From Desulfonatronospira thiodismutans ASO3-1 (GTDB taxonomy: Bacteria > Desulfobacterota > Desulfovibrionia > Desulfovibrionales > Desulfonatronovibrionaceae), in NCBI RefSeq assembly GCF_000174435.1, contig NZ_ACJN02000003.1, forward strand, positions 512,263 through 576,262: 64,000 nt of DNA, read 5' to 3'. The notes below the pieces were generated by a model, which saw only the letters and a list, made by a program, of their open reading frames with translations, searched no databases and was not told the origin of the DNA. Numbering within the stretch: the stretch's first letter is position 1; each line of letters starts with the position of its first letter. Below, piece by piece: positions 10,981 to 30,296 of this stretch. Both the position numbers and the translations under genes were made by a program.

Positions 10981-12285
10981 TTACACCAGATCCAGAAACT
11001 GCCTGGCCCTGGCAGTAGCCTGGTTCTGGATCCGGGCGGCGTCCTCCCGGGAAACGCCCAGGTGCTTTAATGTCCGTTCCACTATATCCCACTGCCCTCG
11101 TTCCCCGGCCATGGCCAGGTCCAGCCAGGCCTGCATCTCCGGGTTTCTCCCCATAAGCACGTCACGCAGGCGCTCATCCAGGGAAATCTTCTGCACAATC
11201 TCCTCCATGGGCTGGGCCAGCAGAGCATCCAGGGAGGAAAAAAGCCCGAGCAGAAACATGGAGTCCGATTCCATGCAGACCGCTTCCCCCCGGTCGCACA
11301 CCGCCTCCAGAAACCACGCCCTCTGCAGGCAGAAAAACAAAAGCTCCCTGGCCCGGGGCGAGGGGTCCATGTCCGCAAGCACCAGCACCCGCAGCCAGGC
11401 TGCGATCCTTCTCTGGCCCAGCATGGTGACTGCCTGGGATATGGATTTTACATCGTAGGCAAGCCCCATTCCAGGAGAATTTATATAACGCAGCAGCCGG
11501 TAGCTAAGGGATACATCACCCTTGATGATTTCGCTTATGCGCGTAAAGTCCAGATCCGGCCGGCCAAGCTCCTGCAGCAGGTTGACCTTGGAAATACGGC
11601 TGGAGGAAAGCTTTTTACCGGAAACCAGCTGGGGCCTGCTGAAGAAAAATCCCTGGAAATAGGAAAATCCCAGCTCCCTGCAGCAATCAAACATTTCCAG
11701 GTCCTCCACCTTTTCCGCCAGCAGGAGGCACTTATGTCTTTGCAGGTCATTTACAATCCGCTCAAGCTCATCCCGATGCATGCCCAGTACATCAACCTTG
11801 ACCAGGTCAGCCAGTTCCAGCAGGGGCTCATAACCAGGGCTGCCCACAAAATCGTCCAGAGCCAGGCTGTAGCCTTCCTCCTTTAGTTGAATGCATATCT
11901 CCAGGATTTCCCTGTCCGGCCTGACGGTCTCCAGGATCTCCACCACTGCCGTCTCTGGAGGCAGTGCCCTGGGACTGCCTCCAAGGAGCATGGATGCAGG
12001 ATAGTTTATCAGGACCCGCTGATTTTCCCGCAGCCATTCCGTGGCCAGGCCGAACCCATCGGCTATCACCCTTGAGGTGGCCAGGTCGCCGTCCTGAAAC
12101 GCAGCGCTCTGACTCCCGGCACCTTCCCGGAACAAAAGCTCGTAGCCCCAGATATTCATCTCCCGGTCAAATACCGGCTGCCTGGCCACATAGACATTGT
12201 CCGGGCCTGTGCCTTCATCACTGTTGACCTGCCTGCTGTCCTGAATCATCTCCAGTATCACTCCGCTTATCTGATATATCCACAA
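10981..12285 (-). CDS. EAL-HDOD (YuxH-like) signalling protein, EAL domain probably degenerate
   Basis: 434 residues. Residues about 32-235 form a YuxH-type EAL-like domain (RQPVFDREMNIWGYELLF, then ALDDFVGSPGY, VKVDV, LAEKVE, QGFFFSRP). Residues about 240-430 form an HDOD domain (VSLSYRLLRYINSPGMG). The EAL triad is replaced by ELL, and the usual metal-binding positions of active c-di-GMP phosphodiesterases are not all present, so a binding or scaffolding role is more likely than hydrolysis. The frame opens with TTG at 12285, with AGGAG four bases upstream. An in-frame ATG at 12249 is an alternative. Transcribed away from the adjacent kinase operon, with about 700 bp between them. Confidence 0.85.
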   Translation of the reverse strand: MWIYQISGVILEMIQDSRQVNSDEGTGPDNVYVARQPVFDREMNIWGYELLFREGAGSQSAAFQDGDLATSRVIADGFGLATEWLRENQRVLINYPASMLLGGSPRALPPETAVVEILETVRPDREILEICIQLKEEGYSLALDDFVGSPGYEPLLELADLVKVDVLGMHRDELERIVNDLQRHKCLLLAEKVEDLEMFDCCRELGFSYFQGFFFSRPQLVSGKKLSSSRISKVNLLQELGRPDLDFTRISEIIKGDVSLSYRLLRYINSPGMGLAYDVKSISQAVTMLGQRRIAAWLRVLVLADMDPSPRARELLFFCLQRAWFLEAVCDRGEAVCMESDSMFLLGLFSSLDALLAQPMEEIVQKISLDERLRDVLMGRNPEMQAWLDLAMAGERGQWDIVERTLKHLGVSREDAARIQNQATARARQFLDLV

Positions 12286-12433: not shown

Positions 12434-12567
12434 TTTTCCACGCAAAGGCGCTAAGATCGCAAAGGGAAGGCAGCCTTGTCCAAAACCATGTCCCGGTTTT
12501 GGACAATACACCTGGTTTGCGTCTTTGCCATTGCGTACTTAGCGTCTTTGCGTCTTTGCGTGAAAAT
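12434..12567. repeat. Inverted intergenic repeat (CGCAAAGGCGCTAAG type) enclosing a hairpin
   Basis: Left arm (CCACGCAAAGGCGCTAAG, from about 12438) and right arm (CTTAGCGTCTTTGCGTCTTT, from about 12538) are imperfect inverted copies. Between them a perfect 12-bp stem (TTGTCCAAAACC at 12476-12487, complement at 12495-12506) closes a 7-base loop. The rest of the 12286-12981 gap is AT-rich and presumably holds the divergent promoters. No gene is seen. The arm sequence resembles an intergenic repeat common in many bacteria (from memory). Confidence 0.65.
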
Positions 12568-12722: not shown

Positions 12723-12741
12723 AAATGACAATTTTGTCATT
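12723..12741. promoter_or_regulatory. Short palindrome, possible operator, in the divergent intergenic region
   Basis: AAATGACAATTTTGTCATT is a dyad (AATGACAA / TTGTCATT apart from the centre) in an AT-rich stretch about 240 bp before the REC-HD-GYP start. Its form suits a dimeric regulator. No regulator can be assigned, and no clear -10/-35 pair was identified. Confidence 0.35.
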
Positions 12742-12981
12742 ATATTATTTGCAAATACTATGTTTAAGATAGTTTACACGGGCACAGGCAAGTCTTACAG
12801 GAAGACATCGATGTTATCTTAAATATAACCCGGCCCGGATTTTCACACGCCGGACATCCGCTCTTTTTGTAAGCCGTCAGATATACCGGCTGCTATCTTC
12901 TGCAATACTTACTTCCGAGGCCAGGCTTACCTCAATCTGCAACCATATCACCCTGAAATTCCAACCTTACAGGCTTATAGA

Positions 12982-14067
12982 ATGAACAATCACCAGGACA
13001 AAAAAAACATTATGATAATTGACGACACCCCGGCCAACCTCAAGCTTCTGCAGGAGATGCTTCAGGGCAGGGGCTACAGGGTCATGGCCTTCCCCCAGGG
13101 GGAGATGGCCCTCAAGGCCGCCGCCCGCAAGCCCCCGGATCTCATCCTTCTGGACATCAGGATGCCCGGCCTGGACGGCTTCCAGGTCTGTACGCGTTTC
13201 AAGGAACAGGAAGGACTAAAAGACATACCCGTCATCTTCATCAGCGCTCTCAATGATCCCAGCGACAAGGTCCAGGCCTTTGCCGCCGGCGGGGTGGATT
13301 ATGTAACCAAGCCCTTTCATCCCGAAGAGGTCCATGCCAGGGTGGCCACCCACATCCGGCTGCGGGGCCTGCAGAAACAGGTGGAGGACTACAATCTGCA
13401 CCTGGAAAAACAGGTGGAAGAAAAGGTCCGGGAAATTTCCGAATCCCAGCTGGCCACCATTCATGCCATGTCGGAACTGGTGGAGCTGCGCGACGTGGAA
13501 ACCGGCGGTCACATCGCCCGCACAAGCAATCTGTGCAAAGCCCTGGCCCACCAGGTAAGCCGGGAATCAGCCTGTGCTTCCCAGGTGAACAGCGACTTTA
13601 TTGACAATATTTCCCGGGCAGCGCCGCTGCACGATATAGGCAAGTTCGGCATCCCCGACAGCATCCTGCTCAAGCCGGACAAACTCACTAAGGAAGAATT
13701 CGAAAACATGAAGTCTCACTGTGAAATCGGGGGCAGAACACTGCAGAAGGCTCTGGAACGCTACCCAAAAAACACCTTCCTCAGCATGGGTGTAGATATC
13801 GCCTGGTACCACCACGAAAAATGGGACGGCAGCGGTTATCCCCTGGGCCTGTCCGGGGAAAGCATACCCTTGAGCGCCAGGATAATGGCCCTGGCTGATG
13901 TCTATGATGCCCTGCGATCCAGCCGGCCCTACAAAAAGGCCTTTTCCCACCAGGAGAGCCTGCGCATAATTCAGGAAGGTTCGGGGACACACTTCGACCC
14001 TGAGCTTGTCCAGGCCTTCACGGCCATAGAGGACCGGATCTGCAGCATTCTAACCCAGGAGTCCTGA
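12982..14067 (+). CDS. Response regulator with HD-GYP c-di-GMP phosphodiesterase output
   Basis: 361 residues. An N-terminal receiver (about 9-125) has phospho-acceptor Asp in LILLDIRMPG, switch residues in FISAL and Lys in VTKPFHPEEV. A short coiled coil follows, then a complete HD-GYP domain (about 160-345): HDIGKFGIP for the metal-binding HD pair and HHEKWDGSGYPLGL for the GYP motif. All visible catalytic positions are kept, so it should hydrolyse c-di-GMP under phosphorylation control. It is first in a plus-strand run and stops two bases before the next ATG, so it is probably co-transcribed with the hybrid kinases downstream. Confidence 0.93.
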   Translation: MNNHQDKKNIMIIDDTPANLKLLQEMLQGRGYRVMAFPQGEMALKAAARKPPDLILLDIRMPGLDGFQVCTRFKEQEGLKDIPVIFISALNDPSDKVQAFAAGGVDYVTKPFHPEEVHARVATHIRLRGLQKQVEDYNLHLEKQVEEKVREISESQLATIHAMSELVELRDVETGGHIARTSNLCKALAHQVSRESACASQVNSDFIDNISRAAPLHDIGKFGIPDSILLKPDKLTKEEFENMKSHCEIGGRTLQKALERYPKNTFLSMGVDIAWYHHEKWDGSGYPLGLSGESIPLSARIMALADVYDALRSSRPYKKAFSHQESLRIIQEGSGTHFDPELVQAFTAIEDRICSILTQES

Positions 14068-16424: not shown

Positions 16425-17553
16425 CGATTATCCTGAAAACCTCAAGGTCCTCCAGGAAATGCTCGAAGTCAGCGGGTACCGGGTGGTGGCCTTTCCCAGC
16501 GGTCCCCTGGCCCTCAAGGCGGCTGACAAAAATCCCCCGGACCTGATCCTTCTGGACATCAAAATGCCTGAAATGGACGGATTCGAGGTCTGCCGCAGGC
16601 TCAAAGCCCATGATAAACTCAAGGAAATTCCAGTAATATTCATCAGTGCCCTGGACCAGGTCCAGGACAAGATCCGGGCCTTTTCCCAAGGCGGGGCCGA
16701 CTACATCACCAAGCCTTTTCACCCTGAAGAGGTCCATGCCAGGGTGACAAGCCACCTGGCCTCCAAGTCCCTTCAGGATCTGCTGTACAGCCACAGCCTC
16801 CAGCTGGAAGAAACCGTCCGGGAACGTACCCGGGAACTTATAGCCGCCAACAAGCAGCTGCAGAACATGCAGCGCCTCAAAAACAGTTTTCTGCGCATGC
16901 TTTCCCATGAGCTGCGCACCCCGGTCAACGGACTCCTGGGCATCAGCCAGGTTCTTCTGGATATCTGCCCCATGGACAATGACCTGCAGCAGCTCAGGGA
17001 AAACTTCTTTCTCAGCCGCAAACGCCTCAACAATCTCATTGAAGACGCCTCCACCATCGCCGGCATGGACAGTTTTGCCCGGGACGGCTACCAGAGGGTA
17101 TCCATATGGGAATATCTGGATGCGGCCCGCAACTGCCTGCAAAAAGTATCCGTAACTGTTGACCGGGAAGAACTTCTGAAGCAGATTTATACCAGCCAGG
17201 ATATGACTCTTTTCAACAGGACCATGGAAACCATACTGCGCCTGGGGCTCTGTTTTTCCTCCAACAGGTCCTTGCTGCAGCTCTTTACAGAAGTAGACGG
17301 GCAAAACCTTGCTTTGAAAATCCATCTGGACAATCTGGAGCTCACAGCCCGGGAAACTGAAACTTTTTTTCACATGGATTCCGAGGTAAGAGGATATTCA
17401 GCCGCCCAGGACCTGGCCCTGGCCCCGGTTGTGGCCCACGAGTTCCTGCTGGCCTCCGGGGGCGGACTTCGGCTTTTTAAGGAGGAAAACCGCACTGGAT
17501 GGCTGGAAGCCTCCATAAAAATTGAAACAGGAAAAAATAAAATTGTCGCATAA
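16387..17553 (+). CDS. Receiver-HisKA protein with degenerate ATPase domain (pseudokinase)
   Basis: 388 residues from the ATG at 16387 (GGTGGAGG just upstream; the frame is open further 5' but without a good site). The receiver is normal (IIDDYPEN, acceptor Asp in LILLDIKMPEMDG, Lys in ITKPFHPEEV). HisKA keeps its His (MLSHELRTPVNGLLG). The C-terminal region that should be HATPase_c has no recognisable N box and no GxGL ATP lid: the N-box region reads TMETILRLGLCFSSN and the lid region reads VVAHEFLLASGGGLRLF. It is therefore unlikely to autophosphorylate and may act as a phosphotransfer partner or receiver-controlled dimer. It overlaps both neighbours, within an operon of sensors. Confidence 0.85.
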   Translation: MRHSMQKTLMIIDDYPENLKVLQEMLEVSGYRVVAFPSGPLALKAADKNPPDLILLDIKMPEMDGFEVCRRLKAHDKLKEIPVIFISALDQVQDKIRAFSQGGADYITKPFHPEEVHARVTSHLASKSLQDLLYSHSLQLEETVRERTRELIAANKQLQNMQRLKNSFLRMLSHELRTPVNGLLGISQVLLDICPMDNDLQQLRENFFLSRKRLNNLIEDASTIAGMDSFARDGYQRVSIWEYLDAARNCLQKVSVTVDREELLKQIYTSQDMTLFNRTMETILRLGLCFSSNRSLLQLFTEVDGQNLALKIHLDNLELTARETETFFHMDSEVRGYSAAQDLALAPVVAHEFLLASGGGLRLFKEENRTGWLEASIKIETGKNKIVA

Positions 17554-20500
17554 AACCTTTCTTTTCAAAGACCTGGTGGACCTGGAGCGCCTGCAGGGCA
17601 TGTTTGAAAACTACGCCGCCTCCACCGGATACAAAATCGGCATCCTGTCCTATCCCGGCCAGGAAATGCTCATCAGTACAGGCTGGAAGGACCTGGGCTC
17701 CAGGTTCAAGAGCTTTCAGCTGGTTACCGGTGACAGCCTGAACCCGGGCAAGCATCCATACACTGCGGACAATGCCCGGCACCGGGTATGCATCCGGGAG
17801 AGCCCGGACGGTTACCTGGAAGGCATCGCCCCTGTGCTGGTGGACGGCACCCTGATGGCCAGTATCTTTATGTCCGCCCCGGAAACTTCAGCTCGTCCTG
17901 ACGGGGAAGACCCGGACGCAGATGAGTCTTCTCCGGCTGATGACAGGTCCTTTCAAAGCGCCCTGGCCTTTCTGTCTGAAATGGCCGCCATGCTGGGGGA
18001 CCAGGGACTGGCCGAGCTTCGTCTGCGCCGGACATCCAGGAAACTGGAAAAAAGCGAAGCCACCTTTAAAAGCCTGGTGGAGCACCTGCCCCAGCGCATA
18101 TTCATCAAGGATCTCAACTCGAACTATGTCACCTGCAACCAAATATACGCCGGGGATGTAGGCCTGACCCCGGAGGAAATACCCGGTAAAACCGATTTCG
18201 ACCTGCACCCCGAAGAACTGGCCCGCAAGTACCGCCGGGACGATCACCGGGTAATAACCCAGGATGCTCCCCTGGAACTTGAAGAAAGTTACAGCAGAGG
18301 GGACAGCTCTTTGTGGATCAGTACCACCAAGGTGCCCTACCGGGATGAATCAGGCAATATAATCGGAGTACTGGGCATCTTCCAGGACATAACCAGGAGC
18401 AAGGAGCAGCAGGCCGAGCTTAAATACAAGGAACAGCTTCTAAAAAACATTGTGGACACCCAGTCCGAGCTCATATGCAGGTTTCTGCCCGACGGCACTC
18501 TGACCTATGTCAACCCGGCCTACTGCCGGTATTTCAACAGGGATGAACAGGACCTTCTGGGCAGGGTATTCCTGCCCATGGTCCATGATGATGACCTGCA
18601 GTATGTCCAGGAATGTTTTTCCTCCCTGGGACCCGACAGACCGGAAATCACCTACCAGCACCGTATCAGGCTGCCTGACGGCCAGATCCGCTGGCAGGAG
18701 TGGACCGACCGGGCCTTTATTGATGAACAGGGCAAAGTCTTTGAATACCAGGCCGTGGGCAGGGATATCACCGAGCACAGGCAGGCGGTCAACTCCCTGC
18801 AGGAAAGCGAGCAGCGCTACCGGGGCCTGGTGGAGTCCCAGAATGACCTTATTGTCCGGGTGGACCCGGACAACAGGCTCACCTACGTCAATGACACTTA
18901 CTGCAAGGTGTTCGGCAGGACCAGGGAAGAACTTCTGGGCAGTTCCTTCACCCCCCTGGTTCACGAAGAGGACATAGAGGATACTCTCAAGGCCATGGAA
19001 GATCTCAAAACCCCTCCCTACAGGGCCCAGATGCAGCAGCGGGCCATGACCGTGGACGGGTGGCGCTGGATCCACTGGGAGGACAGCGCCTTACTGGATC
19101 AGCAGGGCCGGATTGTGGAGATCCAGGGGGTGGGCCGGGACATTACAGACCTGAAAAAGGCCCAGGAGGACCTGCAGCAAAGCGAGAAAAACTTCCGCCT
19201 CATTTTTGAAAACTCACCCGTGGGCATGGCCACCCACGAGATACTCTTAGATGAGCACGGCCGGCCCGTGGACTACATATTTCTGGATGCAAACCCGGCC
19301 TTTGAAACCCACACCGGCCTGTCGGCCCAGGAAGTCACCGGCCGCCGGGCCACAGAGGTCCTGCCGGGGATCGAGAATTCATCTTTTATTGACACCTACG
19401 CCCAGGTGGCCTTTTCCGGCAAGACTGCAAACTTCCAGGAATTTTCACCGCCCCTGAACCGCCACTTTATGATCAGCGCCTACCAGATGGCCCATGGGCA
19501 GTTTGCAGCCTCATTTATCGACATTACAGAACTGGAGAAAACCCGCCGGGAACTTGTCCGGGCCAAGGAGGCAGCCGAAGCAGCCAGCCAGGCCAAGAGC
19601 ACTTTCCTGGCCAACATGAGCCACGAGATACGCACCCCCATGAATGCCATCCTGGGATTCGCCCAGATCCTGGAAAGGGATTCAACTCTTGGCCCCGACC
19701 ATGCCAGGCATGTCCAAAGCATCTCCCGAAACGCCGATCATCTTCTGAGCATTTTAAATGACATCCTGGACATGTCCAGGATAGAGGCCGGGCAGATTGA
19801 ACATAACCCCAGGGATTTCAACCTGCATCAGACTTTCGAGGATCTGGAGCTCATGTTTATCCCCCGGGCCGTATCCAAAGGGCTGGAGTTGACCTTTGAA
19901 AAGAACGGTTCCCTGCCCCGTGCCGGCCACGCCGATCCGGGCATGCTGCGCCAGATCATGGTCAACCTTCTGGGCAACGCCTGCAAGTTCACCTCCCAGG
20001 GCGAGGTGACCTTCCGCATCTCTGCAGAAAAAAACTCAGAAGCCTGCGGCACCGGCCAGGGCGGTTTCACGCTCAACGTCCAGGTCCAGGACAGCGGTCC
20101 AGGAATAGACCCGGAGGAAATGGACAGAATTTTTGATCCCTTTCACCAGGGCGGGCGTGATCCAGGTGAAGGCGGCACGGGCCTGGGCCTGCACATCAGC
20201 CGGAAGTATGCCCGCATCATGGGCGGAGACCTGAGCGTTTCCCCCCACACTGAAAAGGGCAGCTTATTTTGTCTCCAGGTGCCGGTTCAACAGGCAACCA
20301 GGCCTGTAGAAGACGGAAAACCCCCCAGCGGCAGAGTACAGTCCCTGCCTGCGGACATGGCCCCTGTGCTGGTCATGGTGGTGGATGACAAAAAGGACAA
20401 CCGCTCCATGCTGGTGGAACTTCTGCGTCCCCTGGGCTTTGAAACAGTGGAAGCAGCAGACGGCCGGGAGGCCCTGGATCTTTTTCAGGAGCGCTGCCCA

Positions 20501-20995
20501 CAGGCCGTGTTAATGGATATACGCATGCCCGGGATGGATGGATATCAGGCCATCAAAAGCATCAGGCAGGTTGCCGGTGAACAGGGTCCGTTTATCGTGG
20601 CCGTTACCGCCTTTGCCTTTCAGCAGGACAGGGAGGCTGCCCTTGCCGCCGGGGCGGACGAATATCTGAGCAAGCCGTTTCAGCCCGAGGATCTTTTCAG
20701 GCTCCTGGGGCAGGGACTGGCAATCGAATATGTCATGTCTGATACCCGGCAAGACCAGCCACAAGGCCTGTACCAGGAAAAAATGCTGCCAGCGGATCTG
20801 GACCCGGAAACCATAAGTAAAATGCGCAGTGCCCTGGAAGAAGGTGACGTACGCCTGCTAAAAGAACTCATATCCAGCATCCGCAAGAAGCATCCCCAGA
20901 CCTCGGATACCATGATGGAAATGGCTGAGAGGTTTGACTACATACAGCTGGAAACAATGCTGGATCAGGCCCGGTCCGGGCAGAACCGGGAATAG
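17522..20995 (+). CDS. PocR-like/multi-PAS hybrid histidine kinase
   Basis: 1157 residues. The N-terminus (about 15-125: DLVDLERLQGMFENYAASTG) resembles a PocR-type ligand-sensing domain. Four PAS domains follow (from about 180, 305, 430 and 554), then HisKA (MSHEIRTPMNAILGF, His near 701), HATPase_c (GGTGLGLHISRKYA), a receiver (VVDDKKDN near 953, acceptor in AVLMDIRMPGMDG) and a ~65-residue helical tail shared with two other kinases here. The start is uncertain: TTG at 17522 overlaps the previous gene, and TTG at 17543 has AGGA at a better distance. The third and fourth PAS domains closely match PAS domains of the next gene but in swapped order. Confidence 0.92.
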   Translation: MKQEKIKLSHKTFLFKDLVDLERLQGMFENYAASTGYKIGILSYPGQEMLISTGWKDLGSRFKSFQLVTGDSLNPGKHPYTADNARHRVCIRESPDGYLEGIAPVLVDGTLMASIFMSAPETSARPDGEDPDADESSPADDRSFQSALAFLSEMAAMLGDQGLAELRLRRTSRKLEKSEATFKSLVEHLPQRIFIKDLNSNYVTCNQIYAGDVGLTPEEIPGKTDFDLHPEELARKYRRDDHRVITQDAPLELEESYSRGDSSLWISTTKVPYRDESGNIIGVLGIFQDITRSKEQQAELKYKEQLLKNIVDTQSELICRFLPDGTLTYVNPAYCRYFNRDEQDLLGRVFLPMVHDDDLQYVQECFSSLGPDRPEITYQHRIRLPDGQIRWQEWTDRAFIDEQGKVFEYQAVGRDITEHRQAVNSLQESEQRYRGLVESQNDLIVRVDPDNRLTYVNDTYCKVFGRTREELLGSSFTPLVHEEDIEDTLKAMEDLKTPPYRAQMQQRAMTVDGWRWIHWEDSALLDQQGRIVEIQGVGRDITDLKKAQEDLQQSEKNFRLIFENSPVGMATHEILLDEHGRPVDYIFLDANPAFETHTGLSAQEVTGRRATEVLPGIENSSFIDTYAQVAFSGKTANFQEFSPPLNRHFMISAYQMAHGQFAASFIDITELEKTRRELVRAKEAAEAASQAKSTFLANMSHEIRTPMNAILGFAQILERDSTLGPDHARHVQSISRNADHLLSILNDILDMSRIEAGQIEHNPRDFNLHQTFEDLELMFIPRAVSKGLELTFEKNGSLPRAGHADPGMLRQIMVNLLGNACKFTSQGEVTFRISAEKNSEACGTGQGGFTLNVQVQDSGPGIDPEEMDRIFDPFHQGGRDPGEGGTGLGLHISRKYARIMGGDLSVSPHTEKGSLFCLQVPVQQATRPVEDGKPPSGRVQSLPADMAPVLVMVVDDKKDNRSMLVELLRPLGFETVEAADGREALDLFQERCPQAVLMDIRMPGMDGYQAIKSIRQVAGEQGPFIVAVTAFAFQQDREAALAAGADEYLSKPFQPEDLFRLLGQGLAIEYVMSDTRQDQPQGLYQEKMLPADLDPETISKMRSALEEGDVRLLKELISSIRKKHPQTSDTMMEMAERFDYIQLETMLDQARSGQNRE

Positions 20996-21033
20996 ACGGG
21001 ACCGGTTCCTGTTTGCGGCAGAGGAAGCGTTTT

Positions 21034-23781
21034 ATGCTGGAAAAGACTTTCGGCGAAAGAGTCAGGCTGTTCAGGGCCTTGAAGAACCTGACCCAGGGCC
21101 AGCTTGCAGACATGCTGGACATAAGCAGGCATCACATGGGCTGCCTGGAACGCGGCGAATCCGGACCATCCTTCGGGCTCATCAGGAAACTCTGCACCCT
21201 GCTGCAGGTACACCCAGCAAGCCTGTTTCTCTCTTCAGACCAGGAACCAGAGTACCCGGAAGAATCCCAGGTGGACACGTCACCTTTGCAGCAGATCCCC
21301 TTCATGTCCGGCCACGGCACCTGGAACATAAGTATCCCTAACGGTCCTGAAACCTGGTCCCGACAGCTGTGGCAAACCCTGGGGTACTCTACCAGCAGGG
21401 AGCCCTCCCTTGGTTTATTTCTAAAGCACGTTCACCAGGAATCCAGGCAGGCCTTTGAAGCCTTTTACCGGCAACTGGCTTCCGGAAGCATTCCTCCCCC
21501 GGAATCGTTCTGGATCACCCGACGGGACGCAGTCCAAAGGAAAATCCAGGCCAGAGGGGATATCATCAAAGGACCCGGGAGCAGCTCTCCCCTGGCCTGC
21601 CTGAGCCTCCTGGACATTACCGAATGGCTGGAGATGCAGCATCATCTCATGTACAACCAGAATCATCTGCAGAATGCGGTCCTGCAGAAGACCAGGGCTC
21701 TGTCCCGGGCCGTGGAAGAGACCAGGCAGGAACTTGAGCTTCGCAAGGCAGCCCAGGAATTCGCCCGGGAACAGCAGGAAAAAATGGAGAGCATCCTGAA
21801 CAACATGGACGACGGGGTCTGGTCCGCATCCTGGCCTGATATGGATATCCTTTTCATCAGTCCCTCCCTGTCCGGCATATTCGGATACTCAACTGCAGAA
21901 CTGCAGAAAAACAACAATCTCTGGTTTCAGGCCATACATTCCGAAGACAGGCACATAGTGGAAAAATCCCTGCTTGACCTGCCCCGGGAAAAACGCAAGA
22001 GCTTAGAGTACCGGATAGTCCGGCCGGACGGGGAAATCAGGTGGATAAACGACCGCCACTGGCTCATACTTGATCCCTCCACCGGCACTCCTGTCCGGGT
22101 GGACGGGCTGACAGTGGACATAACCCAGCGGTTGCAGATTCGCAGACAACTGGCCGAAAGTGAAGAAAAGTTCCGGAGCCTGACCCTGAATGCCCCGGTG
22201 GGCATAGCCATGCATGAAATAGTGCTAAACCCCCACGGCGACCCCGTGGACTACATCTTTCTGGATGTGAACCCGGCCTTTGAAACCCAGACCGGGCTGA
22301 AACCATCGGAAGTACTGGGACGCCGGGCCTCCCAGGTCCTGCCCGGCATTGAAAACACTTCCATTTTGTCTTTTTTCGGCCAGGTTGTATCCAGCGGTGA
22401 TCCCATGGACTTTGAATTTTATTCCAGTCCCCTGCAGCGCTTTTACATGGTCCATGCCTATAAGATATCCCACAGGCGCTTTGCCGCGGTCTTTATCGAT
22501 ATCACCAGTCAAAAGCAGATGGAGCAGGCCCTGGGGGAAAGCGAAAGGCGCTACCGCGGCCTGGTGGAGTCGCAAAATGATCTCATAGTCAGGGTGGATA
22601 CCGATAACAGGCTCACCTACGTCAATGATACCTATTGCAGGACCTTCGGCAGGACCAGGGAAGAACTAATGGGCAAATCCTTTACTCCCCTGGTGCACCA
22701 GGATGATATCCAGGCTACTCTTCAGGCCATGGAGGGACTCAAGGTGCCGCCCCACCGCATCCAGGTGCAGCAGCGGGCCATGACTGTAGACGGCTGGCGA
22801 TGGATATTCTGGGAAGACAACGCTGTTCTGGATGAGCATGGACACATCGTGGAAATCCAGGGTGTGGGCCGTGACATAACCGAACTCAAATCCCGGCAGG
22901 TACTGCTGCAGTCCATATTCCAGGCCAGCCAGGACGTATCCTTTGTGGTCACCCAGAACATGCCCCACTCCGGAGACATCATCCTGGAATTCAGCCCGGG
23001 GGCTGAAAACCTTTTCGGCTACTCCAGGGAAGAAGTCCTGGGCAAACCTGTGGCCATGCTGCATGATCCCGCTGACATACCCAGGTTTCCGGATATCCAC
23101 AGGACCCTGAAAGAAAATCAGCCCTGGAGGGACAAGGTCAACCTGGTGCGCAGAGACGGCAGTACTTTCCCGTCTCTTTTTACAGTCTATCCCTTCGAAT
23201 ATGACGGCAAAGACTCCACCCTGGGGGTGTCCATAGACATTTCCGAGCTGGAACAGGCCAGAAAGATCCTGGAAAAAACAGCCATAACCGATCACCTCAC
23301 AGGGCTCATGAACCGCAGCAGATTCGACCAGCTCATGGAGGAAGAATGGCGCAGGGCCAAGCGTGGAGGACATTGTCTGTCAATACTCATGCTGGATATA
23401 GACAACTTCAAGCAGTTCAATGACTTTTACGGGCATATCCAGGGGGACAGGTGTCTGCAGAGGATAGCCGGTATCCTTTCAGCCTGCCTCATGCGGGCAG
23501 GCGACGTCCTGGCCCGTTACGGCGGAGAAGAGTTCATAGCCCTGCTTCCGGATACCCCGCTGCAGTCAGCTGTTGTCGTGGCTGAAAAAATGCGCATGTC
23601 TGTAGAAAACCTGGGCATGCCCAATACAGGTTCCCAGGCAGGACCATTTGTATCAGTCAGTGCCGGAGTTGCCTCGTCCTGTCCCTTCCCGGGCATGTCC
23701 CGGCAAGGACTGATCCATCAGGCGGACATGATGCTTTACAAGGCCAAAAGCCTGGGACGCAACACGGTTGCGTGGCAATAG
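21034..23781 (+). CDS. XRE helix-turn-helix / multi-PAS / GGDEF diguanylate cyclase fusion
   Basis: 915 residues from ATG 21034 (GAGGA nine bases upstream). Residues about 5-62 are a Cro/CI-type helix-turn-helix (FGERVRLFRALKNLTQGQLA, then ISRHHMGCLERGES). A PAS-like region and coiled coil follow, then four PAS domains and a C-terminal GGDEF domain (about 745-910) with intact GGEEF active site and an RxxD inhibitory site (RAGD) five residues before it. It should make c-di-GMP and show product inhibition. A sequence-specific DNA-binding domain on the same chain is unusual. It may localise synthesis at DNA or act as a PAS-controlled regulator. Last gene of the plus-strand run; repeats follow. 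Confidence 0.92.
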   Translation: MLEKTFGERVRLFRALKNLTQGQLADMLDISRHHMGCLERGESGPSFGLIRKLCTLLQVHPASLFLSSDQEPEYPEESQVDTSPLQQIPFMSGHGTWNISIPNGPETWSRQLWQTLGYSTSREPSLGLFLKHVHQESRQAFEAFYRQLASGSIPPPESFWITRRDAVQRKIQARGDIIKGPGSSSPLACLSLLDITEWLEMQHHLMYNQNHLQNAVLQKTRALSRAVEETRQELELRKAAQEFAREQQEKMESILNNMDDGVWSASWPDMDILFISPSLSGIFGYSTAELQKNNNLWFQAIHSEDRHIVEKSLLDLPREKRKSLEYRIVRPDGEIRWINDRHWLILDPSTGTPVRVDGLTVDITQRLQIRRQLAESEEKFRSLTLNAPVGIAMHEIVLNPHGDPVDYIFLDVNPAFETQTGLKPSEVLGRRASQVLPGIENTSILSFFGQVVSSGDPMDFEFYSSPLQRFYMVHAYKISHRRFAAVFIDITSQKQMEQALGESERRYRGLVESQNDLIVRVDTDNRLTYVNDTYCRTFGRTREELMGKSFTPLVHQDDIQATLQAMEGLKVPPHRIQVQQRAMTVDGWRWIFWEDNAVLDEHGHIVEIQGVGRDITELKSRQVLLQSIFQASQDVSFVVTQNMPHSGDIILEFSPGAENLFGYSREEVLGKPVAMLHDPADIPRFPDIHRTLKENQPWRDKVNLVRRDGSTFPSLFTVYPFEYDGKDSTLGVSIDISELEQARKILEKTAITDHLTGLMNRSRFDQLMEEEWRRAKRGGHCLSILMLDIDNFKQFNDFYGHIQGDRCLQRIAGILSACLMRAGDVLARYGGEEFIALLPDTPLQSAVVVAEKMRMSVENLGMPNTGSQAGPFVSVSAGVASSCPFPGMSRQGLIHQADMMLYKAKSLGRNTVAWQ

Positions 23782-23869: not shown

Positions 23870-24962
23870 GATGAAAAATGTTTATAAGGAAGGGAGCTCA
23901 TACAACCACCCCCGACCCCTCCTTGGCTAAGGAGGGGAGCTACACCGTGCCCTGGACTTACTTGGGTGGTGAAAGTTTAATCAAGATCCAGACGCAGAAT
24001 TTATACAGATGCATGCGACAAAATGTTGCCACCCCTCAATCTGCTCCCCTTAAGAAGTATGGAAGTAGGGGCGTATGGGAGTATGGGAGTAAAAATATCT
24101 TTACACCCACACATGGATACCCCCATACACCCATACTTTCTTCCTGAGGGAGGGGAGCTACACCGTGCCCTGGATTTACTTGGGTGGTGGAAGTTTAATC
24201 AAGATCCAGACGAAGTATTTAGACAGATGCCTGCGACAAAATGTTGCCACGCCTCAATCTGCTCCCCTCCTTGGCTAAGGAGGGGTTGGGGGTGGTTCGA
24301 TACTTAGCTCCCTTCCTTACCTGGCTTTCTTCCCAGGCCAAGAAGGGGAGCTAAACCGTGGCCTGGATTTACTGAGGAAACGGACTTCTGGAATTTTTAT
24401 AAGGAAGGGATCTCATACAACCACCCCCGGCCCCTCCTTGGCTAAGGAGGGGAGCTACACCGTGCCCTGGATTTACTTGGGTGGTGGAAATTTAATCAAG
24501 CTCCAGACGGAGTATTTAGACAGACGCCTGCGACAAAATGTTGCCACCCCTCAATCTGCTCCCCTTAAGAAGTATGGAAGTAGGGGCGTATGGGAGTATG
24601 GGAGTAAAAATATCTTTACACCCACACATGGATACCCCCATACACCCATACTTTCTTCCTAAGGGAGGGGAGCTAAACCGTGGCTTGGACTTACTTGGGT
24701 GGTGGAAGTTTAATCAAGATCCAGACGAAGTATTTATACAGAGGCCTGCGACAAAGTGTTGCCACGCCTCAATCTGCTCCCCTCCTTGGCTAAGGAGGGG
24801 AGCTACACCGTGCCCTGGACTTACTTGGGTGGTGAAAGTTTAATCAAGATCCAGACGGAGTATTTAGACAGATGCATGCGACAAAATGTTGCCAAGCCTC
24901 AATCTGCTCCCCTCCTTGGTTAAGGAGGGGTCGGGGGTGGTTCGATACTTAGCTCCCTTCCT
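23870..24962. repeat. Large intergenic repeat field, inverted orientation
   Basis: About 1.1 kb between the GGDEF fusion and kaiC consists of repeats. At least five CCCCTCCTTGG(C/T)TAAGGAGG cores occur (near 23917, 24267, 24435, 24779 and 24909). These units are the reverse complement of those at 7560-10690. Two copies of the quasi-palindromic CCCATAC element lie at about 24053-24150 and 24565-24665, nearly identical to each other. Open frames exist only because the repeat lacks stops; they share repeat-derived peptides and are not genes. Confidence 0.85.
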
Positions 24963-25058: not shown

Positions 25059-26747
25059 ATGACTCAACACAACAACTACTTATCCAAATCCCCCACAGGC
25101 ATCCAGGGCTTAGACGAAGTTCTGGACGGAGGCCTGCCCAGCGGCAGATCCACCCTGGTCTGCGGCTCCGCCGGCTGCGGCAAGACCCTGCTGGGCATGG
25201 AGTTTCTCATCCACGGGGCGCAACAGTTCCAGGAGCCCGGAGTCTTTGTGGCCTTTGAAGAAACAGAAGAGGACCTGGCCCGTAACGTAGCCTCCCTGGG
25301 CTATGACCTGACCTCCTTGGTGCAGGAACGGAAAATGCTGGTGGAATACGTTCACGTTGCCCGGGAAGAAATCCAGGAAACCGGGGAGTTCAGCCTGGAA
25401 GGACTGTTCATCCGCCTGGAACATGCCATCAACACAACAGGGGCCAGGCGGGTGGTCCTGGACACCTTGGAGACCCTTTTTTCCGCCCTGCCCAACCACT
25501 TTATCCTGCGGGCCGAGTTGCGCCGCTTAGTGCGCTGGTTCAAGGACAGGGGCGTTACTGTCATACTCACGGGTGAGCAGGGCGAAGGCACCATGACCCG
25601 CCATGGCCTGGAGGAATATGTCTCGGACTGTGTAATCATGCTGGATCACCGGGTGATCAACGAGGTCTGCACCAGACGTCTGCGGGTTGTCAAATACCGT
25701 GGATCCACCCACGGCACCAACGAATATCCCTTCCTGATAGATGGCAAAGGCTTTTCAGTACTTCCGGTCACCTCCTTGAACCTGCAGCACAGGGTGTCAA
25801 CTGAACGTGTAAACACAGGCATCACCGGCCTGGACAACATGCTGGACAACCAGGGCTATTACCGGGGCAGCACTGTTTTGATTTCCGGCACCGCCGGTAC
25901 CGGTAAATCCAGTATCGCCGCCCATTTTGCCGACGCTGCCGGCAGGCGCGGCGAAAAGACCCTTTATTTTACCTATGAAGAGTCCCCTCACCAGGTTCTG
26001 CGCAATATGAGTTCAATAGGGATTCACCTTGAACCCTGGATAAACCAGGATGTGCTGAGATTCGAGGCTGCCCGGCCCAGTGTCTACGGCATTGAAATGC
26101 ACCTGGCCAGAATAATGCAATGCGTCAAAGAGTTTCAGCCTTCGGTGGTCATAGTCGATCCCATCAACTCCCTTCTGGGGGAAAGCAATCAGCCTTCGGT
26201 CAAGGCCATGCTCATGCGCCTGGCGGACTTCCTCAAAGGCCAGGGAATTACAGCCCTGTTCACCAGCCTGACCATCGGGGGCAGGCACCAGGAAAGCACT
26301 GACACCGAGATATCCTCGCTGATCGATACCTGGCTTCTTCTGCGGGATATTGAAATAAGCGCAGAGCGCAACCGGGGCATTTACATCCTCAAATCCAGAG
26401 GCATGAACCACTCCAAGCAGATCCGCGAGTTTATTCTCACTGACCATGGTGTGGAACTGGTGGACGTTTACGCCGGAACAGAGGGCATACTCACAGGTAC
26501 AGCCAGGCTGGCCAGAGAAGCCCGGGACCGGGCCGAAAAGAATAAGCGCAGCCGCCGGATCCAGCAGAAAAAACACGATATTGAAAACAGGCGTAAGGCC
26601 TTAGAGGCAAAGATATCCGCCATGCAGGCAGAGTTTGAGAGCCAGGAGGCAGAGATAAACATGCTGATTCAGGAAGAGCAGAATCAGGAACAGCTCATGG
26701 AACAGGACATGGACGAAATCACTAAGAGCCGGCAGGGCAGATTATAG
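25059..26747 (+). CDS. kaiC: KaiC-family double-ATPase (circadian clock-type protein)
   Basis: 562 residues with two RecA-like domains. The first has Walker A GSAGCGKT with catalytic Glu pair FEE. The second has GTAGTGKSS with YEE. The region matching the phosphorylation loop of cyanobacterial KaiC reads EISSLID, so residues 419-420 are Ser-Ser rather than Ser-Thr. The C-terminus (about 490-562) is a charged, Gln/Glu-rich coiled coil, longer than a typical A-loop tail. KaiC proteins hydrolyse ATP and autophosphorylate. Together with the two kaiB genes and kinase downstream this forms a Kai-type cassette without kaiA. The ribosome site upstream of ATG 25059 is weak. Confidence 0.95.
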   Translation: MTQHNNYLSKSPTGIQGLDEVLDGGLPSGRSTLVCGSAGCGKTLLGMEFLIHGAQQFQEPGVFVAFEETEEDLARNVASLGYDLTSLVQERKMLVEYVHVAREEIQETGEFSLEGLFIRLEHAINTTGARRVVLDTLETLFSALPNHFILRAELRRLVRWFKDRGVTVILTGEQGEGTMTRHGLEEYVSDCVIMLDHRVINEVCTRRLRVVKYRGSTHGTNEYPFLIDGKGFSVLPVTSLNLQHRVSTERVNTGITGLDNMLDNQGYYRGSTVLISGTAGTGKSSIAAHFADAAGRRGEKTLYFTYEESPHQVLRNMSSIGIHLEPWINQDVLRFEAARPSVYGIEMHLARIMQCVKEFQPSVVIVDPINSLLGESNQPSVKAMLMRLADFLKGQGITALFTSLTIGGRHQESTDTEISSLIDTWLLLRDIEISAERNRGIYILKSRGMNHSKQIREFILTDHGVELVDVYAGTEGILTGTARLAREARDRAEKNKRSRRIQQKKHDIENRRKALEAKISAMQAEFESQEAEINMLIQEEQNQEQLMEQDMDEITKSRQGRL

Positions 26748-26825
26748 CCTGCATTTATCTTTTAAGCCTTACATTCGGCATGGTTTTCCTTGAAAAGACC
26801 AGACAGTAAACAACGGAGAAAAACA

Positions 26826-27164
26826 ATGAGCGACCAGAACCAGGAACCTGATGACGACATGAGGCAGCAGGATACGGACAGCGGCATGTGGAACCTGAGG
26901 CTCTATGTGGCCGGCCAGTCCAGCAAATCCCTGACTGCTTTTGCCAACCTCAAAGCCCTGTGTGAAGAACATCTGCAGGGGCGCTACACCATCGAAGTAG
27001 TCGACCTGATAGAAAATCCTCAACTGGCCAAGGGTGACCAGATCCTGGCCGTTCCTACTCTGGTGCGTAAGCTGCCGCCGCCCCTCAGGAAAATTATCGG
27101 GGACCTCTCAGACACTGATCGTGTCCTGGTGGGCCTTGATCTGAAACAGCACGAAACCGAATAA
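26826..27164 (+). CDS. kaiB: KaiB-family protein (first copy)
   Basis: 112 residues from ATG 26826 (ACGGAG ten bases upstream; an upstream in-frame TTG at 26790 is less likely). The acidic N-terminal ~20 residues ([14 protein letters not shown]) precede the thioredoxin-like KaiB fold: [49 protein letters not shown]. KaiB binds the first ATPase ring of KaiC after a fold switch. It follows kaiC by 78 bases and precedes a second kaiB by 16 bases, so the genes form one operon. Confidence 0.93.
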
Positions 27165-27180: not shown

Positions 27181-27519
27181 TTGGGTTCCACCAAAAACAG
27201 AAGCACTGCTGAAAAATTTCAGCAAATCCTGGATCAAGGCCCACAGGAAACTTACCTGTTGCGCCTTTATGTCGCCGGAACCTCGCCCGCCTCTGCCAGG
27301 GCCATCAAGAATATCAGGCGAATCTGTGAGGAACACCTGCCGGGGCGTTACCATCTTGAGGTCATTGACCTTTACCAGCAACCGGAACTCAAGCTGCCAG
27401 AATGTGTCGTCACCGCCCCCACCCTGATAAAAGAACTGCCGCCTCCCCTTCGCTGCATTATCGGTGACATGTCCAACACCAGCCGGGTGCTGGCCGGCCT
27501 GGATATAAAAGTCAGATAA
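27181..27519 (+). CDS. kaiB: KaiB-family protein (second copy)
   Basis: 112 residues with TTG start at 27181 (GAGG six bases upstream; no ATG is available before the fold). It has the same KaiB core as the preceding gene (LLRLYVAGTSPASARAIKNI, VIDLYQQPELKL, VTAPTLIKELPPPLRCIIGD) but is clearly diverged elsewhere, including a basic N-terminus (GSTKNRSTAEKF). Two non-identical KaiB proteins next to one KaiC suggest a mixed or competing assembly. It ends 11 bases before the kinase gene. Confidence 0.92.
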   Translation: MGSTKNRSTAEKFQQILDQGPQETYLLRLYVAGTSPASARAIKNIRRICEEHLPGRYHLEVIDLYQQPELKLPECVVTAPTLIKELPPPLRCIIGDMSNTSRVLAGLDIKVR

Positions 27520-27530
27520 AAAGCTTTCAA

Positions 27531-30296
27531 ATGGTTATGCACGACAAAACACAGGATGCAAAGGATCTGCAGCAGGAAAACGCAGAACTGAGAGCCAGGC
27601 TGGAAGATACACAGGAAACACTGCGGGCCATTAGAAGCGGAGAGGTGGACGCCTTAGTGGTCTCAACGGACCAGGGAGAGCAGGTTTTCACCCTCAAGGG
27701 GGCGGACCACCCATTCCGGGTGCTCATGGAAGACATGAGTGAAGGCGCCCTGACCCTGTCCAGTGACGGCATCGTCCTGTACGCCAACCAGCGCTTTGCC
27801 GAGATGCTTAAAAGCCACCTGAACCTGGTTGCAGGCTCGGACCTGGTGCAGTGGATTCAATCCGGCCACCGCTGCCGCTTCTATTCTCTTTTGCAAGGCC
27901 AAAGCGGCCAGAGGTCCAGTGGAGAAATCAATCTGGTTGATTCCCAGGGGGCTCTTGTTCCGACTCAGTTTTCCCTGACCCCTCTGGAAACACAGGACAT
28001 CCAGGGCGCTTTCTGTGCCGTGGTCACTGATTTAAGCGAACACAAGCGCCTGCAGGAAATAAAGGCTGCTGAGCAGACGGCCAGGGCCAGGGCCCAGGAA
28101 GCAGAACGTTACAGTGAAACCCTGGAAAGCCTGGTGAGAGATCTTAATAAAGCCAGAAAAGGACTAAAGGAAAATCAAAACTTCCTGGAATCAGTACTGG
28201 ACACCATCCAGGACGGCATAGTCGTTCTGGACAAGGACATGAACATAATAAAGACCAATAGAGTAATTCAGAACCTGTACTCCCTGGATCACTCCCGTCA
28301 GGAAAAATGCTACACAGCTTTTCATGGCCGCCGCGAACCATGTGACCTCTGCCCCACATCCAGGGCCATGCAGACCGGGAACCTGGAGGTGGAAGAAATA
28401 CCAATAATCCAGAATGGAGTTGAAACCGGAACCATGGAAGTCTTTGCCTATCCCATGCGGGATGAGCAGGGAAATATTACCGGCGTTGTGGAATACGCAA
28501 GAGATATCAGCAAGGTCAAAAGAAACCGGCAGGCCCTGAAAAGAAGCCAGGCTCTGCTGTCCAGAACCCAGGAAATCGCTGACATCGGCAGCTGGGAAAT
28601 GGACCTGGACAAAGACGTTTTGACCTGGTCGGATCAGGTATATCGCATGTTTGGCTATGCCCCGCAATCTTTCCAGCCGGGCTACCAGTCTTTTCTTGAT
28701 GCAGTACACCCCGAAGACCGGGAATCTGTGCACAAGAAATACCTGGAGTCAATGCTCGACGTATCTCAGGGCTTTGAATTCGAACACCGGATAGTCAGGG
28801 CTGACAGTCAGGAAGTGCGTTATGTCCGGGAACAGGGTTTACACGAATTAGACGATGCAGGACGTGTGGTCCTCTCCTATGGGGCCATCCAGGATATCGC
28901 GGAAAACAAACTTGCCGCTGACAAACTCCGCGAAAGAGAGGAAAAATACCGGGCCCTGGTGGATCAGTCTGTGGAAATGATATACCTGCACGACATGGAA
29001 GGCCGGTTTATCGAAGTCAATGCCGCTGCAGTCAGCAATACCGGGTATACCAGGGAAGAACTGCTGAGCATGAACGTCTTTGATCTGCACACTGACCAGT
29101 TAAGCCAGGAGGAGGTTAAAAACTACTGGCAATCCATGCTCCCCGGCCAATCCATGACTGTGGAAACCGAACACCACAAAAAGGACGGCTCGGTTATTCC
29201 TGTAGAAGTCAAAATCGGCAAAATCTATTACAGCAACCAGGAGCATATCATGGCCCTGGTACAGGACATCACCGAGCGCAAACAGGTACATCAGGAACTT
29301 ATCGCCCGCAGGTCCGCCGAAGAAGCCAACAGGGCCAAAAGCCGTTTCCTGGCCAACATGAGCCATGAAATCCGCACCCCCATGAATGCTGTCCTCGGGT
29401 TCGCCCGCATGCTGGAGAACGATCCAGCTCTTCCGGCCAAGCAGGCCGCCCAGGCCGGGACCATTGTGCGCAGCGGGGATCATCTGCTTCAGCTGCTCAA
29501 CAGCATCCTGGACATGTCCCGTATAGAGGCGGGCCAGAGCGGACTTCACCCTGAAGACTTTCATCTCCCTGGCCTGATTGATAAATTGATGACCATGTTT
29601 GAATTGAGCGCTCAGGACAAGGGCCTTGAACTTGTACTGGAAAAAGATCCCCATCTCCCCCCGGATCTGCATGCCGACCAGGGCAAGCTGCTGCAGATCC
29701 TGACCAACCTTTTAAGCAACGCTATCAAGTTTACCAGCACCGGGGAAGTAAAGCTGACCATAAGCTCAAAACCACCTGGGCCTGCTGATACTGCCTGTGA
29801 AGAACAGGACCTGGGCCTGGTATTCCAGGTGCAGGATTCCGGTCCGGGAATAACTGCGCAGGATCAGGCACAATTGTTTGAACCTTTTTTTCAGACCCAG
29901 AATAAAATGCATCCCGGCGGGACCGGTCTGGGCCTGACCATCAGCCGGGAATACGCTGTTCTCATGGGGGGCAACCTGACAGTGAGCAGCCAGGAGGGCC
30001 GGGGCAGCTGTTTTCGTCTGGAAATACCTGTAAAAAGAGCCCGGACTCAAACCACCCCCCGGCAACCCGCCTCTGCTATGCAGAAGCCCCAGGCCGACAG
30101 GGGTCCGCCCGGCTTTGATCACTCCGTAACCCAGGAGATCTGCGAAGCAGTATCCCAGGGAGATGTGGTCAAGCTCATGCAGACCCTGGACGAAGCCGCC
30201 GGCCAGGACCAGGAATCGGCCGTGAAACTCAAAGATATGGCCCGTAATTTCGAGTATGACAGAATCATGCACTGGCTGAACCATTCCGGTGCTTAG
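27531..30296 (+). CDS. Multi-PAS histidine kinase of the kai cassette
   Basis: 921 residues, cytoplasmic. A coiled coil with the motif AIRSGEVDALVV (about 30-45) leads into four PAS domains. The second holds a Cys cluster (CYTAFHGRREPCDLCP, near 262-277) that could bind a metal or cofactor. HisKA has His near 612 (MSHEIRTPMNAVLGF), and HATPase_c is complete (NLLSNAIKF, DSGPGI, GGTGLGL). There is no receiver, so a separate response regulator must take the phosphate. The next gene, which starts with a receiver, is a candidate. The last ~60 residues match the helical tail of the kinases at 14070 and 17522. Co-transcribed with kaiC-kaiB-kaiB, it may be an input or output kinase of the Kai system. 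Confidence 0.92.
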   Translation: MVMHDKTQDAKDLQQENAELRARLEDTQETLRAIRSGEVDALVVSTDQGEQVFTLKGADHPFRVLMEDMSEGALTLSSDGIVLYANQRFAEMLKSHLNLVAGSDLVQWIQSGHRCRFYSLLQGQSGQRSSGEINLVDSQGALVPTQFSLTPLETQDIQGAFCAVVTDLSEHKRLQEIKAAEQTARARAQEAERYSETLESLVRDLNKARKGLKENQNFLESVLDTIQDGIVVLDKDMNIIKTNRVIQNLYSLDHSRQEKCYTAFHGRREPCDLCPTSRAMQTGNLEVEEIPIIQNGVETGTMEVFAYPMRDEQGNITGVVEYARDISKVKRNRQALKRSQALLSRTQEIADIGSWEMDLDKDVLTWSDQVYRMFGYAPQSFQPGYQSFLDAVHPEDRESVHKKYLESMLDVSQGFEFEHRIVRADSQEVRYVREQGLHELDDAGRVVLSYGAIQDIAENKLAADKLREREEKYRALVDQSVEMIYLHDMEGRFIEVNAAAVSNTGYTREELLSMNVFDLHTDQLSQEEVKNYWQSMLPGQSMTVETEHHKKDGSVIPVEVKIGKIYYSNQEHIMALVQDITERKQVHQELIARRSAEEANRAKSRFLANMSHEIRTPMNAVLGFARMLENDPALPAKQAAQAGTIVRSGDHLLQLLNSILDMSRIEAGQSGLHPEDFHLPGLIDKLMTMFELSAQDKGLELVLEKDPHLPPDLHADQGKLLQILTNLLSNAIKFTSTGEVKLTISSKPPGPADTACEEQDLGLVFQVQDSGPGITAQDQAQLFEPFFQTQNKMHPGGTGLGLTISREYAVLMGGNLTVSSQEGRGSCFRLEIPVKRARTQTTPRQPASAMQKPQADRGPPGFDHSVTQEICEAVSQGDVVKLMQTLDEAAGQDQESAVKLKDMARNFEYDRIMHWLNHSGA

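Follow-up and report, generated by a model that had tools for sequence, protein, structure and literature searches.

Diguanylate cyclases of the WspR/PleD type take their input from a receiver domain. They provide the PDB structures closest to the GGDEF domain of the protein described here, in which both the A-site and the I-site are intact, and they differ from it in having no DNA-binding head. A head of that kind is found on the degradation side of c-di-GMP turnover, in PdeL (YahA) of E. coli, an HTH(LuxR)-EAL trigger phosphodiesterase that is described, in the passages of two papers that deal with it, as an activator of its own expression that binds its promoter region at an imperfect palindrome (PMC5052742, PMC12564702). 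As characterised in those passages, PdeL resembles our protein in joining an N-terminal DNA-binding head, here a putative one, to an enzyme of c-di-GMP turnover, but it degrades c-di-GMP through its EAL domain and carries a LuxR-type head without a PAS stack, whereas the protein at this locus is a predicted cyclase with an XRE-PAS head (PMC5052742, PMC12564702). By analogy, it is best read as the mirror image of PdeL, a putative counterpart on the synthesis side.

Individual features of the protein also recur in other regulators. BldD is a c-di-GMP-controlled regulator with an XRE-type DNA-binding domain, but it has no enzymatic domain in the account given and binds tetrameric c-di-GMP via RxD and RxxD motifs of its helical C-terminal domain (PMC4151990). 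The MltR/MmyB-like structure 3pxp, a Foldseek match to our head model, likewise places an N-terminal XRE domain before a PAS-like domain, and the alignment spans both domains of the head; the whole-chain root-mean-square deviation is nevertheless about 16 Å at 12-13% identity, and neither a further PAS domain nor an enzyme appears in the part of the source that describes it (PMC3406030). In the FG214 heme switch, an N-terminal HTH precedes a PAS domain whose state governs dimerisation and DNA binding, although no cyclase is described there and the likeness holds at the level of the HTH-PAS arrangement, not of the HTH family (PMC13060918). Finally, the section on PopA indicates that GGDEF proteins which are degenerate but have kept their I-site intact can serve as c-di-GMP receptors (PMC5052742). 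Neither an XRE-GGDEF protein nor an XRE-PAS kinase family was found in the literature searched, which comprised open-licence papers only and leaves their absence unproven.

Architecture and genomic setting of the predicted cyclase

The gene lies at 21034..23781 on the plus strand of the 64-kb stretch of DNA analysed (the window) and encodes, from an ATG start, 915 residues arranged as XRE, divergent PAS, coiled coil, four further PAS domains and GGDEF, in a reading frame that shows no damage. The original prediction had placed an XRE domain, several PAS domains and an intact GGEEF plus RxxD site on one chain with its own ribosome site, and all of this was confirmed by Pfam and by the sequence, including a Shine-Dalgarno-like AGAGGAAG (21020..21027, plus strand) spaced 6 nt from the ATG. 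The predicted combination of XRE, PAS and intact GGDEF on a single chain is real and rather unusual; the 4.1-Mb genome holds 36 HTH_3 matches, and this gene is the sole one on a frame longer than 307 residues.

The XRE (Cro/C1-type) helix-turn-helix comprises five helices (residues 2-64; 21037..21225, plus strand, like all features of the gene given below). It is assigned by Pfam (HTH_31, residues 6-62, 34.8 bits against a cut-off of 27; HTH_3, residues 11-62, 29.2 bits against a cut-off of 23), by the structure model and by PDB matches, Foldseek and VIA-align placing it near C.AhdI (rmsd 1.1), SinR and ClgR. Its recognition helix (residues 32-39; 21127..21150), located by the model and alignments, belongs to the class HxGC[LI]ERG. 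AlphaFold2 modelled the first 250 residues with a mean pLDDT of 87.8 and a pTM of 0.54, the linker at residues 69-89 being poorly predicted. The model further contains a second domain (residues 92-194; 21307..21615), which has no Pfam call and which the same two comparisons place near FixL and LOV PAS domains, followed by a coiled-coil signalling helix (residues 196-249; 21619..21780). On the strength of the model and the fold comparison, the protein therefore has five PAS domains rather than four. Pfam matched no MmyB-type ligand-binding domain in it at E-values up to 1.

The remaining PAS domains were called by several Pfam models, which cover up to four stretches: residues 273-358 (21850..22107), a domain of approximate bounds at 22195..22490, residues 506-615 (22549..22878) and residues 643-738 (22960..23247). 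The chain ends in a GGDEF domain (residues 750-910; 23281..23763; 166 bits in Pfam) whose nearest PDB structures are those of WspR. Its I-site RAGD (residues 821-824; 23494..23505) is separated by five residues, the canonical cyclase spacing, from the A-site GGEEF (residues 830-834; 23521..23535), and the protein shares 45% identity with a receiver-GGDEF protein, itself intact, that is encoded in the same window. It appears able to make c-di-GMP.

The cyclase gene is the last of five closely spaced genes (starts at 12982, 14070, 16339, 17522 and 21034). The first (12982..14067, plus strand) encodes a receiver joined to an HD_5 domain of HD-GYP type, a candidate c-di-GMP phosphodiesterase; the second encodes a PAS hybrid kinase, the third a receiver with HisKA, and the fourth (17522..20995, plus strand) a PocR-PAS-hybrid histidine kinase that ends 38 nt upstream of the cyclase ATG. 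An EAL-HDOD gene (10981-12285, minus strand) diverges from the run. Because the cyclase gene comes last in this signalling run, its promoter may sit about 8 kb upstream, and prediction returned no promoter-like site on the plus strand from 19474 to 21034; self-regulation from within the run would therefore act at a distance or via an unseen internal promoter. Two PAS segments of the cyclase gene are DNA copies of parts of the upstream kinase gene, 22498-22890 matching 18764-19156 (77.1% over 393 bp) and 22195-22355 matching 19217-19377 (74.5% over 161 bp), with their order swapped between the two genes. The cyclase and the PocR-PAS kinase may for this reason sense related cues.

Several further features of the surroundings were recorded. 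An inverted repeat, GAACCGG-N12-CCGGTTC (20983-21008), extends across the stop of the upstream gene just 5' of the Shine-Dalgarno-like site and could couple translation. The divergent intergenic region contains TTGTCCAAAACC, a perfect inverted repeat of 12 bp whose arms stand 7 bp apart (12476-12506); present in a single copy in the window, it is possibly a terminator or hairpin. Just 3' of the cyclase lie a KaiC-like gene (25059-26747) and two KaiB-like genes (26790-27164 and 27181-27519), identified with NCBIfam, and then a PAS hybrid kinase (27531-30296; Pfam). Repeated short ORF-like stretches at 23878-24843 and 50410-50862, with the near-identical peptides HTTTPDPSLAKEGS and MEVGAYGSMGVK, are probably a dispersed intergenic repeat.

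The XRE-PAS head as a recurring module

Beyond what had been predicted, the head proved to be a recurring XRE-PAS module, carried mostly by histidine kinases. We define the head family by a full-length match to XRE, divergent PAS and coil, with the first 250 residues as query. Scored with a head profile from which it had been left out, the window protein reached 267 bits (residues 2-258). When its head was shuffled, not one of 2000 copies matched at the N terminus, such matches as arose coming only via the unshuffled part. Full-length matches also occur in further genomes from the family and the order. At E 1e-15, 98 of 199 genomes sampled from the class gave some head match, many of them XRE-only or PAS-only; at E 1e-28, with at most nine candidates scored per genome, a head was found in one of 297 genomes sampled from the phylum, the window's own. 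A scan of named genomes yielded three head loci, two in Desulfomicrobium, which we take to be a member of the order Desulfovibrionales, and one in an unclassified Proteobacteria MAG. The head was matched in part by 22 plasmid records, in none of them over 80% of its length. No full head was found in the six other genomes of the genus, which makes a footprint for the window gene impossible. PADLOC matches were to generic HTH-bearing models and were set aside.

The comparison set comprises 47 Pfam-annotated relatives from the same order (Desulfovibrionales-like), or 48 heads with the window protein. Dropped before these counts were L038 and L104 (head cut short), L105-L108 (match confined to the XRE part or little more) and the genome_contigs records L086-L088, of which L086 and L087 duplicate L049 and L050. 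A histidine kinase is the output in 25 of the 47 (L100 is cut by its contig and L027 has a partial ATPase), and one more, L034, runs off its contig end. No recognised enzymatic output was found in 20 of the 47, some of whose frames may be assembly damage: 14 have PAS domains (L026 also GAF), four end in GAF and two are heads alone of about 222 residues. Five sister pairs of such output-less heads, from different genomes, have near-equal lengths (L029/L054, 509/509; L030/L032, 621/621; L035/L037, 854/848; L036/L039, 686/692; L101/L102, 223/222). With no enzymatic output in these 20, the XRE domain is the only evident output there. The stand-alone heads, L101:2535-3203 (minus) and L102:2204-2869 (plus), share a CAAACTGTGG[TA]TTTGTT element about 50 bp upstream.

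GGDEF occurs in one relative, L023, so that two of the 48 head proteins carry it, one with a dead active site; GGDEF under this head is rare, in line with the earlier expectation that GGDEF proteins seldom carry a DNA-binding head. The tree joins the window head to L023 and L043 (98/91). These two are close heads of one genome, L023 with GGDEF and L043 without, which shows outputs being exchanged beneath a stable head. In the XRE-PAS protein L023 (2480-5236, minus), SSKEF replaces the A-site while the RxxD I-site is kept, and the PopA precedent makes it a candidate c-di-GMP-sensing XRE regulator.

Within the head, the XRE domain is the best-conserved part. Mean column entropy across the 48 heads is 1.74 bits for XRE, 2.50 for the coil, 2.65 for PAS and 3.45 for the linker, and a start downstream of the XRE domain, which had been named as an outcome that would undo the original prediction, is on this account unlikely. 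G7, R14 and E39 are invariant and Q21, the helix-2 glutamine, is present in 47 of the 48; the window head keeps all of these together with the near-invariant L24, P45 and S46. In phage repressors the helix-2 glutamine contacts DNA. The XRE head of the family looks like a working DNA-binding module.

Operator-like palindromes in front of head genes

Aligned upstream DNA of related head genes contains conserved dyads of 21 bp, in which two 9-bp arms flank a 3-bp spacer. In four of seven groups tested, the dyad score was reached by none of 500 column shuffles; these are the Desulfomicrobium group (seven rows, for which L088 was nevertheless included), g21 (five rows) and the pairs L024/L051 and L092/L093. 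The other three gave no dyad signal (five-row f4, 229/500 shuffles; L035/L037, 113/500; L031/L038, 229/500). Dyad geometry alone was dropped as a test: upstream enrichment was seen at spacers of 5, 8 and 12 besides 3, perhaps from terminators, and motif and helix class were therefore used instead.

Motif M1 (ACACGTAATnnnATTACGTGT, up to three mismatches) lies upstream of all eight heads with the recognition helix SLEHx[NS]K[IL]ERG and of none of the 39 others; M2 (AAACAAGATnnnATCTTGTTT, up to four mismatches) lies upstream of all six Desulfomicrobium-group heads and also of L041 and L091, and M3 (AnnCAACCTnnnAGGTTGnnT, up to three mismatches) upstream of 12 heads, the consensus being drawn in part from the same sites, so that neither these counts nor the Markov copies of upstream regions that reach the limit (0/490 for M1, 1/490 for M2 and 8/490 for M3) are independent tests. 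Taken together, M1, M2 within the Desulfomicrobium group and M3 give 26 of the 47 relatives an operator-like site, and none of the three types was found upstream of the other 21. Across the 47 loci (366.8 kb), 28 of 29 hits lie upstream of a head gene and no more than 400 bp from it, and the remaining one is an M3 site in L055. We also trained a weight matrix on 12 sites and applied it to upstream DNA from 30 further members, with no training site among them. No Markov copy out of 200 did as well as L033, L090, L091 and L103, of which L033 shares a clade with three training sites, and one did as well as L052 and L055; L101 (2/200), L037 (3/200), L023 (6/200) and L041 (7/200) were weaker, and the remaining 20 members were matched by at least 11 of 200.

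At genome scale, all 12 genomes that carry a head with the SLEH helix type contain a single M1 site (up to three mismatches), which in every case immediately precedes the head gene; the test included the full heads of G069, G078, G091, G105 and G162, which are without Pfam annotation. Where the SLEH helix type is lacking, M1 is absent from four of five genomes, G083 having one site with three mismatches. M2 (up to two mismatches) is found at the head gene in all six Desulfomicrobium-group genomes with a head, G036 having one extra, weaker site elsewhere; at the same limit there was no site in either of two same-genus genomes without a full head or in four further genomes. Across both tests, the site stands directly before the head gene and is unique, or nearly so, in 18 of 18 genomes. 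A single site at the head gene is the trace that a dedicated autoregulator would be expected to leave. Because the palindrome type tracks the recognition helix and the pattern holds in every one of these 18 genomes, it is very probable that the head works as a DNA-binding module that regulates itself, which suggests that head-bearing sensors may control their own production. In the Desulfomicrobium group, a second conserved block, GTATGACA or GTAAGACA, was noted about 225 bp before the start and upstream of the operator (L044, L047-L050 and L089).

An autoregulated transcription factor had been one suggestion for the window protein. That idea finds good support in the head family through the palindromes that track the recognition helix; the operator candidates of the window gene, both close to it and where the run begins, are all weak. 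Its recognition helix class is shared, among the 48 heads, only with L023 and L043, and neither M1 (up to three mismatches) nor M2 (up to two) has a site in the window's genome. One candidate, ATACTATGTTTAAGATAGTTT (12755..12775, strand unassigned), lies in the divergent promoter region of the run; it is the best matrix site at the run start and comes fifth within the window, its score being equalled by 30 of 500 Markov copies of the region. The other, ATCGAATATGTCATGTCTGAT (20723..20743, strand unassigned), lies inside the upstream gene and resembles the dyad upstream of L023 at 14 of 18 positions, a score reached by 2 of 159 window tiles (five comparisons). No perfect match to the core of this dyad exists in the two genomes beyond these two places, from which the pattern had been chosen, and the window's genome has one further site with a single mismatch. 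We treat both candidate operators as leads. A palindrome, ATGACAATTTTGTCAT (12725-12740), was rejected as an operator, since TGACAANNTTGTCA occurs at two places in the genome against one for the reversed control and is unenriched.

Proposed mechanism and rival readings

We propose, with a probability of roughly 0.55, that the window protein is a soluble, bifunctional protein, at once an active diguanylate cyclase and an XRE DNA-binding autoregulator. In this model, the XRE head would bind DNA as a dimer, most likely at a single palindromic operator before its own transcription unit, while the PAS stack and coiled coil would sense a cytoplasmic cue and set the conformation of the dimer. The GGDEF dimer would make c-di-GMP, and product bound at the I-site could shut the cyclase off. 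One conformational switch in the PAS-coil dimer would then change cyclase activity and DNA occupancy together, and the run of phosphodiesterase, kinases and cyclase would be adjusted by its own last gene. We infer both the binding of DNA by the window protein and the coupling between PAS state, cyclase activity and DNA binding, and that the regulation is repression is a guess. The further ideas in the original prediction, that c-di-GMP is made at a specific locus and that DNA binding is controlled by the protein's own product, are so far unsupported.

The same chain could instead be an ordinary PAS-GGDEF cyclase that gained an XRE-PAS head by domain shuffling, with the XRE domain acting as a non-binding dimerisation or folding cap. 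The chain is indeed a mosaic, two of its PAS segments matching the adjacent kinase gene as DNA copies at 77% and 75%, and no relative of its whole architecture was found in 18 genomes of the family. Its HTH_3 score of 29.2 bits is below those of several relatives (L023, 41.2; L024, 43.9; L028, 56.8), and solved enzymes with an XRE-fold head exist, HppE being among the structural matches; to our knowledge, the XRE-like part of HppE has no proven DNA role. Against a non-binding cap, however, the frame is undamaged and the window head retains every one of the conserved residues from G7 to S46 named above, and we regard this account as somewhat unlikely. The emphasis could also be reversed, making the protein primarily a one-component transcription factor whose GGDEF domain senses c-di-GMP or GTP with minor catalysis, along BldD- or PopA-like lines. 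Here the nearest GGDEF-bearing head relative, L023, has lost its A-site and kept RxxD, enzyme-less heads are common (20/47), and the close heads L023 and L043 of one genome differ in having or lacking GGDEF; yet the A-site of the window protein is complete and its identity with the intact receiver-GGDEF protein of the window is 45%, which leaves this reading decidedly doubtful.

A different objection concerns the palindromes, which might be operators of another regulator and not of the XRE heads. The evidence for them is computational, and one site per genome would fit any dedicated regulator. Nevertheless, from genus to genus the type of operator varies with the recognition helix of the XRE domain, the sites are absent from both Desulfomicrobium-group genomes without a head gene, and M1 is absent from four of the five genomes that lack the SLEH helix type; an unrelated regulator therefore seems very improbable to us. 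Returning to the bifunctional autoregulator, its most far-reaching form is a speculation that we hold to be unlikely: all head enzymes, histidine kinases for the most part and an active cyclase here, would be their own dedicated regulators, each on a private palindrome before its own gene, with the PAS signal switching the enzyme and DNA release together and, in the window protein, product binding at the I-site feeding back on DNA occupancy.

The strongest result is the set of putative private operators of XRE-headed kinases and their relatives, matched to recognition helices, rather than the GGDEF fusion. It is usual to regard the input as the sole control over a sensor kinase or cyclase, and the head family appears to couple both kinds of enzyme physically to DNA, through an operator that is recognisable in the sequence, varies along with the recognition helix and is close to unique within each genome. 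This opens a testable question, namely whether a kinase or cyclase sits on its own promoter and is released by its signal or its product, and the head family would offer a natural helix-to-operator series for XRE domains.
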